Positions 31,677-33,665 of a stretch of DNA of 55,298 nt are shown piece after piece. Source of the stretch: Flavobacteriaceae bacterium (GTDB lineage Bacteria; Bacteroidota; Bacteroidia; Flavobacteriales; Flavobacteriaceae); assembly GCA_018608765.1 (NCBI GenBank), contig JABAYY010000080.1, forward strand, positions 1 through 55,298, given 5' to 3'. The stretch's first letter is position 1, and each line of letters opens with the position of its first letter. Below the pieces are notes generated by a model, which was not told where the DNA came from, made no database searches, and was given only the letters and a program-made list of their open reading frames with translations. A program made the translations under genes and the position numbers.

Positions 31677-33665
31677 ATGAGCCCGAAAAAAGTCTTAAAA
31701 AAAACATTTAATTTGATATCAAAATCCACCATAGATCAAGTTTTTGACACTGCCCGTGTAGAGGAAGTGATTGGTGATTTTGTACAATTAAAAAAATCGG
31801 GGAGTAATTTTAAAGGTTTAAGTCCTTTTAGCGAAGAACGAACCCCAAGTTTTATGGTATCTCCTGTAAAACAAATTTGGAAAGATTTTTCAACTGGAAA
31901 AGGGGGGACTGCTGTTTCATTTTTAATGGAGCATGAGCATTTTACATACCCAGAAGCCATCAAATATTTAGCACGAAAATATAATATTGAAATTGAAGAA
32001 ACCGTACAGTCTGATTCCGACAAAGAAGCTGCAGGGGAACGCGAAAGCATGTACTTAGTCAGTGAATATGCGAGAACCTATTTTCATAATACACTGCTTA
32101 AAACAGATGCTGGAAAAGCCATCGGGCTTAGTTATTTTAAGGAACGTGGGTTTACAGATGAGACGATTAAAGAGTTTCAGTTGGGGTACTCTACGGATGC
32201 ATGGAGTGGATTGACGGACACTGCCCTTAAAAAAGGCTATCAGCTAAAATATTTAGAAAGTACTGGTCTTTCAATTGTGAAGGAAACCAAACAATTTGAC
32301 CGTTTCAAAGGTCGGGTAATGTTTCCCATTCATAGTATGTCGGGACGGGTGCTTGGTTTTGGGGGTCGAATTTTAGCTAAAAATGAAAAAGCGGCTAAAT
32401 ACCTCAACTCGCCAGAGAGTGATATTTATCATAAAAGTAAAGTGTTGTATGGTATTTACTATGCCAAGCAAACGATTGCAAAAGAAGACAATTGTTATTT
32501 AGTTGAAGGTTATACCGATGTGATTCAGTTTCATCAAAAAGGCATTAAAAATGTGGTGTCTTCTTCAGGAACCGCTTTGACTCCCGACCAGATTCGATTG
32601 ATCAATCGTTTGACTAAAAACATTACAGTGCTGTTTGACGGCGATCCCGCTGGGATCAGAGCTGCGCTACGGGGAATTGACTTGATTTTAGAGCAAGGAA
32701 TGAATGTAAAAATTTGCACTTTTCCAGAAGGTGAAGACCCTGATAGTTTTGCAAAACAAAATACGCTTGAAGAATTACAAACGTATCTCAAGGAAAATGC
32801 AAAGGATTTTATTGCTTATAAGGCGTCTTTGCTTATGGAAGAAGCCCAAAATGATCCGGTGGCAAAAGCCAATCTGATTCGGGATATGGTAACAAGTATT
32901 TCTAAAGTTACGGACAATATTCAACGTGAAATATATGTACGGGAATGTTCACGTATTATGGATATTAGCGAAGAAGTGCTTTTTAGTACTCTTGCTCAAA
33001 TGGGTAAAAAAGCGCAAAATGACGCCAATAAATCCTACAATCAAAAACAAAAAGCTTTTGAGGTTGTGAAGTCCACAGCAGCTCCCATAAAAGTGGATAT
33101 TCAATATGAGTTAGAGCAAAAAATCATTGAAATATTACTTCTCTACGGAAGTCGAAAAGAGTCTTTTGAGGATTTAATACTGAAAGAAAATGATAAAGGG
33201 GCTCTCGCACTTGAACCTGTTATTCATGAAGTCAAAGTTTTTGAGAAAATATTTTTGGATTTACAAGAAGATGAAATGCAGTTCACCAATGAGAACTTCA
33301 AAACACTGTATTACACGATTATCGATAGTTTAAACCAGACGGATGATTTTGTAATTGAATCTTTTGTGAACCATTTAGATCCAGTTTTAGCTTCAGATGT
33401 GACCAATATTTTGATGAATGAAGAACGGTATAATCTTCATAATTGGGAGAAAAATAATATTTTCCCAAAACAAAAAGATGTAAGTATCGCACAATTGGTA
33501 AGTGAAACAATTCTGACACTTCGTTGTTTTTTGATTGATCGAAAAGTAAATGAAATCAAGCAAGATACGCAAGACGAAGTTGACCATCGAGCACTTTTAG
33601 AAGATGTGTTGAATTATTCCAATTTAAAAATGTTGTTATCTAGGAAACTTAGCCGAGTGCTTTAA
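31677..33665 (+). CDS. dnaG: DNA primase without zinc ligands
   Basis: DnaG lays RNA primers for replication. The 662-residue protein has the N-terminal domain (about 20-105), the TOPRIM catalytic core (Glu277 in VEGYTD, Asp321 and Asp323 in FDGDPAG) and a C-terminal helicase-binding region. The four zinc ligands of the CHC2 finger are replaced: Ser49 and Ser52 for C-x2-H in GLSPFS, and Asp70 and Thr73 for C-x2-C in KDFSTGKGG. The rest of that domain is well conserved, so it probably folds without metal. The ATG at 31677 is listed; homologues begin near the TTG at 31713 (ISKSTID), which may be the true start. The stop lies three bases from the convergent regulator gene. Confidence 0.93.
   Translation: MSPKKVLKKTFNLISKSTIDQVFDTARVEEVIGDFVQLKKSGSNFKGLSPFSEERTPSFMVSPVKQIWKDFSTGKGGTAVSFLMEHEHFTYPEAIKYLARKYNIEIEETVQSDSDKEAAGERESMYLVSEYARTYFHNTLLKTDAGKAIGLSYFKERGFTDETIKEFQLGYSTDAWSGLTDTALKKGYQLKYLESTGLSIVKETKQFDRFKGRVMFPIHSMSGRVLGFGGRILAKNEKAAKYLNSPESDIYHKSKVLYGIYYAKQTIAKEDNCYLVEGYTDVIQFHQKGIKNVVSSSGTALTPDQIRLINRLTKNITVLFDGDPAGIRAALRGIDLILEQGMNVKICTFPEGEDPDSFAKQNTLEELQTYLKENAKDFIAYKASLLMEEAQNDPVAKANLIRDMVTSISKVTDNIQREIYVRECSRIMDISEEVLFSTLAQMGKKAQNDANKSYNQKQKAFEVVKSTAAPIKVDIQYELEQKIIEILLLYGSRKESFEDLILKENDKGALALEPVIHEVKVFEKIFLDLQEDEMQFTNENFKTLYYTIIDSLNQTDDFVIESFVNHLDPVLASDVTNILMNEERYNLHNWEKNNIFPKQKDVSIAQLVSETILTLRCFLIDRKVNEIKQDTQDEVDHRALLEDVLNYSNLKMLLSRKLSRVL

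Follow-up and report, generated by a model that had tools for sequence, protein, structure and literature searches.

On the evidence of its sequence, the dnaG gene of the window, by which we mean the whole stretch of 55,298 nucleotides of Flavobacteriaceae DNA analyzed here, encodes a DnaG whose template-recognition domain is a zinc-less variant, both conserved and recurrent. In our judgment this DnaG is probably the replicative primase of the cell in a zinc-independent form, with a folded and working template-recognition domain. Because the same swap recurs repeatedly in other bacteria, zinc-less DnaG looks like a widespread zinc-free version of the primase and not like a one-off. Searches of open-access literature gave no title on a zinc-less bacterial DnaG, which is weak evidence of novelty, and the accessible part of a 2014 paper in which DnaG serves as a phylogenetic marker for Flavobacteriaceae does not report this state.

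The gene extends from position 31677 to 33665 on the forward strand, as do all features given below, and encodes a protein of 662 amino acids, as defined by its open reading frame, by Pfam and NCBIfam profiles and by alignment to 2au3. The protein reaches 426.8 bits with the NCBIfam dnaG profile TIGR01391 (cut-off 283.6), and its matches to DNAG_N, Toprim_2, DnaB_bind and PF01807 are all above the Pfam cut-offs. The catalytic (RNA polymerase) domain, taken as residues 120-430 (32034..32966), comprises the DNAG_N match at residues 136-264 and the Toprim_2 match at 274-358. Its modeled fold also matches a known structure in a structure comparison, and the Toprim acidic residues E277, D321 and D323 are kept in 103 out of 103 zinc-less alignment rows that were not chosen by a DNA pattern. 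The DnaB-helicase-binding region is present as the Pfam DnaB_bind stretch at residues 392-433 (32850..32975; PF10410, 27.9 bits against a cut-off of 20.6, profile positions 15-56 of 56). The N-terminal CHC2-homologous domain, which has lost its ligands, spans residues 14-109 (31716..32003); PF01807 matches it at residues 15-109 with 93.9 bits (cut-off 24.9), and its AlphaFold2 model matches 1d0q_A.

Alignment with the Aquifex structure 2au3 and with 140 DnaG loci assigns the CHC2 columns to S49 (codon AGT, 31821..31823) at the place of the first ligand, a Cys, S52 (AGC, 31830..31832) at that of the second, a His, and D70 (GAT, 31884..31886) and T73 (ACT, 31893..31895) at those of the third and fourth, both Cys. 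The Cys-His-Cys-Cys (CHCC) ligand set of the CHC2 zinc finger is absent from this DnaG. The initial annotation had read all four ligands as replaced by Ser, Ser, Asp and Thr within a preserved surrounding motif (GL-PF---RTPSF-VSP-KQI---F--GKGG); the alignment bore out these replacements, and the quoted neighbors are present. Since the ligand columns read S49, S52, D70 and T73, the domain is best described as a CHC2-domain homologue and not as a CHC2 zinc finger. Two further positions in the domain differ between the two forms of the protein, namely codon 60 (ATG, Met; 31854..31856), mostly polar in CHCC rows and hydrophobic in zinc-less rows of the alignment, and codon 72 (TCA, Ser; 31890..31892), which is Gly in 47 of the 50 CHCC rows.

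A protein from another assembly (L250), 98% identical to the DnaG of the window, carries the identical four residues. Furthermore, the comparison of flavobacterial DnaG N-termini that had been proposed at the outset was carried out, and in the window's own family, where 53 genomes have PF01807 matches, all 13 DnaG proteins read are zinc-less. A unique mutation or a sequencing error is therefore ruled out. The ligand columns were read in loci found with PF01807 across the order and the phylum to which the window belongs. This search is blind to the ligands but favors weak matches, which were fetched on purpose; zinc-less DnaG is thus enriched among the reads, and the counts give no prevalence. 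In the order's remaining 14 families, the reads are wholly zinc-less in ten (f2-f6, f8, f9, f11, f13 and f15), all CHCC in f7, f12 and f14, and CHCC in f10 except for one genome (L094). In this genome (G038) the zinc-less DnaG frame is 457 amino acids long, compared with 623-654 in most f10 relatives. In the class, the zinc-less state was found in two of four f16 genomes, in both f21 genomes and in f19 and f20, and in the phylum in f29, f31, f42 and f62, with f46 split one to one.

A DNA pattern search, in which positions 70, 72 and 73 and several conserved ones were constrained and neither ligand 1 nor ligand 2 was fixed, matched 29 viral contigs and at least 118 genome contigs. Among the matches listed, ligand 1 is Ser at the pattern match in 29/29 viral and 118/118 genome contigs. 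According to their organism names, 102 of the 118 genome contigs among the matches listed belong to Bacteroidota (79 of them to Flavobacteriales), 8 to Verrucomicrobiota, 5 to Pseudomonadota (Hyphomonadaceae) and 3 to Chlorobiota. Beyond the family, zinc-less DnaG proteins were read in Flavobacteriales, Cytophagales, Mucilaginibacter, Chlorobiaceae, Hyphomonadaceae and Opitutales. Both states were found among the relatives of the Hyphomonadaceae and Opitutales matches, and 20 out of 20 Chlorobium relatives read are zinc-less. This recurrence in four phyla, assigned by organism name, contradicts the view that bacterial DnaG has the CHC2 ligands almost universally. The broken CHC2 site had been presented as an exception to such a near-universal feature, and this part of the initial annotation was wrong, as no other state was read in the family and the zinc-less one recurs across these phyla. 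The 29 viral contigs (L142-L170) carry DnaG-like open reading frames with Ser at ligand 1 and without the full CHC2 set. Twelve of these 29 frames exceed 1000 amino acids, and the long C-terminal part is without a Pfam match in the two that were checked (L161 and L152). A viral frame of 343 amino acids (L166:3411-4439) joins a zinc-less PF01807 domain to DUF6371 and has no Toprim match.

Changes of state were counted on a tree built solely from the catalytic domain (residues 120-430), which kept the columns of the trait itself out. With IQ-TREE (quick search), 161 rows, 111 zinc-less and 50 CHCC, gave 16 state changes, at least 10 of which are forced by starred (supported) branches; with FastTree, 163 rows gave 19 changes, at least 10 of them forced. 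These counts are independent of the root, do not distinguish losses from regains of zinc and, with rows hand-picked from 408 loci and not drawn at random, bound the number of events and not the prevalence. Two zinc-less rows, L079 (flagged as a long branch) and L255 (end branch 0.85), were dropped for IQ-TREE and kept in FastTree; L100, L117 and L124 had been omitted before tree building, and L355 was too short. Eight of the 161 rows came from the DNA pattern, and the picture is the same without them (103 zinc-less rows).

The changes on this tree might also represent the exchange of the N-terminal domain between lineages by recombination, in which case a zinc-less module would have been transferred instead of zinc being lost independently each time. 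Among 12 zinc-less rows analyzed in this respect, six were informative, with no close zinc-less sister in the way. In L094, L116, L390 and L176, the remaining columns of the domain are nearer to those of far zinc-less DnaG proteins than to those of the zinc-bearing rows nearest in the catalytic domain (for L094, similarity 0.75 as compared to 0.68), and pairs of mixed state have additional divergence of the domain in the bins of higher identity. However, the domains of L407 and L231 are closest to a zinc-bearing relative (0.62 versus 0.60 and 0.55), the differences are small, and shared compensatory changes could explain them. Independent loss and domain exchange thus both appear possible, case by case, and we regard exchange as an unlikely explanation for the changes overall.

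The genome of the window contains a DUF164/FlgZ-like coiled-coil protein (L444:1438-2109, contig C95), encoded on a different contig than dnaG, whose ribbon reads S..S...D..S (SSDS), with the same replacement letters as zinc-less DnaG. The accessible part of a 2011 study describes DUF164 of Flavobacteria as generally having SXXS...DXXS in place of CXXC...CXXC, and DUF164 genes as having a close association with rpoD and dnaG in many bacteria outside this group (PMC3372290). In our set, the distance between DUF164 and dnaG is about 4 to 5 kb in the zinc-bearing genomes G453 and G263 and 13 kb in G317. DUF164 could be read in 46 of the 47 genomes looked at. Its ribbon is intact in 17 out of 17 genomes with CHCC DnaG and broken in 20 of the 29 with zinc-less DnaG; the nine intact exceptions are the Mucilaginibacter-like G334, G435 and G589, Reichenbachiella G588, the f31/f42 genomes G255 and G317, and G691, G692 and G718 from the Opitutales search. 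On independent pairs the coupling is seen in 3.6 of 7, with none in the opposite direction and a median p of 0.125, which is not significant, and a coupling of the changes in DUF164 and DnaG is suggestive only. In G038 (L417), which also has a zinc-less DnaG, DUF164 is broken (C-CC) with a short deletion.

The joint loss of both ribbons would be expected if the lineage dropped zinc from many of its proteins, with DnaG as one casualty. Besides the intact ribbons in nine of the 29 genomes and the result on independent pairs, the other zinc sites of the window's genome argue against such genome-wide zinc sparing, which we consider a doubtful explanation. LigA, identified by a family search, retains its four Cys, and the zinc fingers of PriA, ClpX and a protein that, from its domains, we take to be RadA-like are retained as well according to a Cys-motif scan of 325 kb, which by its design could find intact motifs only and never proteins with lost ligands. 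A wholesale shedding of zinc is not supported by these four proteins, the last three of which come from the intact-motif scan. The Top1 zinc ribbon (PF01396) and ribosomal protein L31 (PF01197) gave no match in this 87% complete genome, which is silent on their ligands. As a broader and speculative idea, which we think has a small chance of being correct, there may be a recurrent zinc-independence switch in bacterial replication, by which DnaG and DUF164/FlgZ would have been rewritten in many of the same lineages as S..[ST]/[CD]..[ST], either as partners or under one shared pressure, and priming in zinc-less lineages would begin at different or less strictly defined sites.

The replacements in DnaG come as a package. 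Among the 161 rows, four ligands are retained in 50, one in 57 and none in 54, and two or three are never found. Where a single ligand is retained, it is Cys3 in 55 rows and His2 in the 2 rows reading SHDT. Ligands 1 and 4 are gone in 111/111 zinc-less rows and ligand 2 in 109/111. Ligand 1 is replaced by Ser in 109 of the 111 and otherwise by Thr, ligand 4 by Ser, Thr or, once, Ala, and Gly72 by Ser or Ala. The DnaG proteins of two f4 genomes (L076 and L077) read S-H-D-T and thus have the His of ligand 2 without the other three ligands. Residue 60 is polar in 46 of the 50 CHCC rows; it is hydrophobic in 95% of the 111 zinc-less rows (99 out of 103 without the pattern-chosen rows) as compared to 8% of the CHCC rows. 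In 10 independent pairs, ligands 1, 2 and 4 switch in about 10, accompanied by loss of Gly72 in 8.4 and by the change in the class of residue 60 in 8.2, with none in the opposite direction. For positions 60 and 72, sign tests give p values of about 0.008, which fail correction for the 88 tests printed from a screen of 440 positions. The swap at residue 60 is not obligatory, since Thr, Ser or Lys occupies this place in 15 of the 29 zinc-less primases from viral contigs.

The same residues bear on the idea that the Ser/Ser/Asp/Thr set holds another metal, such as Mg2+. Asp and Ser or Thr are plausible hard ligands, and Asp occupies position 70 in 56 of the 111 zinc-less rows. The remaining 55, however, have Cys at this position, and position 52 may be T, S, K, N, V, H or A; because of this free choice at 52 and the alternation of Cys and Asp at 70, another metal site is quite unlikely.

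Priming by a second, zinc-bearing primase, which the initial annotation had named as an observation that would count against its reading, is very unlikely. In a profile search of the window's own genome (2.07 Mb, 105 contigs), the single match to PF01807 is the dnaG gene of the window itself, a count that is provisional as the assembly is 87% complete and 6.6% contaminated. Among the 53 same-family genomes, 40 have just one PF01807 match and 13 have more than one, and a mobile-type open reading frame of 869 amino acids with a CHCC finger is present twice in G110 (L410), a genome of the same family. However, the extra copies L411, L412 and L413 in zinc-less hosts are also without the full CHC2 set. 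This search covers primases of the PF01807 family, and the extra copies L414 and L415 were unreadable and left out.

The N-terminal domain is under strong purifying selection and shows no decay. In 11/11 pairs of zinc-less DnaG, it has a lower dN than the catalytic domain, and in 9 of these 11 its dN is also much lower than that of the C-terminal part; omega lies between 0.011 and 0.049 in the 9 of 11 pairs with computable dS. The 11 pairs were hand-chosen, and the 19 sequences used are the DnaG of the window and pattern-chosen loci. At matched catalytic identity and with the ligands left out, conservation of the zinc-less domain equals or exceeds that of the zinc-bearing one in five of six bins, the sixth giving 0.683 versus 0.694, with the top two CHCC bins being small (10 and 8 pairs). 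Nine domain positions are invariant across the 103 zinc-less rows that were not pattern-chosen. That the domain is a dead relic, as might be suspected from the joint loss of zinc ligands and primase activity described for Twinkle in the accessible part of PMC7231222, is already contradicted by the dN values and these invariant positions and is most improbable, and the reading as a vestigial domain was rejected.

An AlphaFold2 model calculated from 56 zinc-less sequences has a mean pLDDT of 86.4 and a pTM of 0.58, with block pLDDT values of 88-91 for residues 31-100; the underlying alignment (A1) consists of the DnaG of the window and pattern-chosen loci, and part of its invariance is built in. 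The model matches the zinc-binding domain of B. stearothermophilus DnaG (1d0q_A) with a TMt of 0.86 and an rmsd of 1.0 over 92 columns. The zinc-ribbon fold is thus predicted to be kept, a prediction that may lean on the fold of the family.

With respect to function, the zinc motif is reportedly needed for template recognition by T7 primase, according to the title of a paper cited in a review. The available text of PMC6163395 states that T7 primase, when its zinc-binding domain is missing, synthesizes random dinucleotides and needs no DNA to do so, and that of PMC7231222 that Twinkle has lost primase activity along with three of four conserved Cys; zinc loss can thus mean priming loss. The former source also describes the ligands of the domain, Cys3-His, as highly conserved and the role of the zinc motif as still to be resolved. 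In the case of the zinc-less DnaG proteins, purifying selection on the domain and its presence in the sole DnaG found suggest that it functions without CHC2 zinc, and template recognition without zinc is likely.

In the reading that we favor, that of a zinc-independent replicative primase, the N-terminal template-recognition domain would retain its zinc-ribbon fold without metal. We infer a metal-free state in which side-chain contacts take the place of zinc, the metal site being replaced by a small polar cluster with Ser or Thr at positions 1 and 4, Asp or Cys at position 3 and several residues at position 2. The change from Gly to Ser beside ligand 4 would accompany this cluster, as would, in most cases, a hydrophobic residue 60 on the neighboring strand. 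Such a domain should still help to place single-stranded DNA over the Toprim active site, and the choice of the priming site would presumably continue to depend on it; start trinucleotides known for several DnaG proteins are given in the accessible part of PMC5429622. With a large natural set of zinc-less primases, relatives that retain zinc and 10 or more changes of state on supported branches, the role of zinc becomes directly testable. Furthermore, the CHC2 ligands are unsafe as a test for a working DnaG, and the CHC2 site is unsafe as a universal drug target.

Overall, when compared with known systems, the domain is most directly related to the N-terminal domain of zinc-bearing DnaG (B. 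stearothermophilus 1D0Q; A. aeolicus 2AU3), which it resembles in predicted fold and in its place in the protein, with 46% identity over 92 columns. In contrast to these proteins, the DnaG of the window has none of the CHC2 ligands, Ser instead of Gly72 and a hydrophobic residue 60. Ribosomal proteins with and without Zn ribbons were reportedly described by Makarova, Ponomarev and Koonin in 2001, and zinc-less DnaG shares with them the recurrent disruption of a ribbon in a protein that is itself retained. According to the accessible part of PMC7873864, zinc-less ribosomal paralogs are expressed in zinc starvation; unlike these paralogs, the dnaG gene, single in the window's own genome, has itself been switched, with a near-identical residue set each time. 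The change from CXXC...CXXC to SXXS...DXXS in DUF164/FlgZ of Flavobacteria uses the same replacement letters, ligand by ligand, but in a different protein family, and the available part of PMC3372290 leaves the role of the Cys-less forms open. Twinkle, the mitochondrial helicase with a primase-like N-terminal part, is likewise a relative of primases in which conserved Cys have been lost. In contrast to Twinkle, which has no primase activity according to the accessible part of PMC7231222, the DnaG of the window keeps the Toprim acidic residues and is the only DnaG found in its genome.
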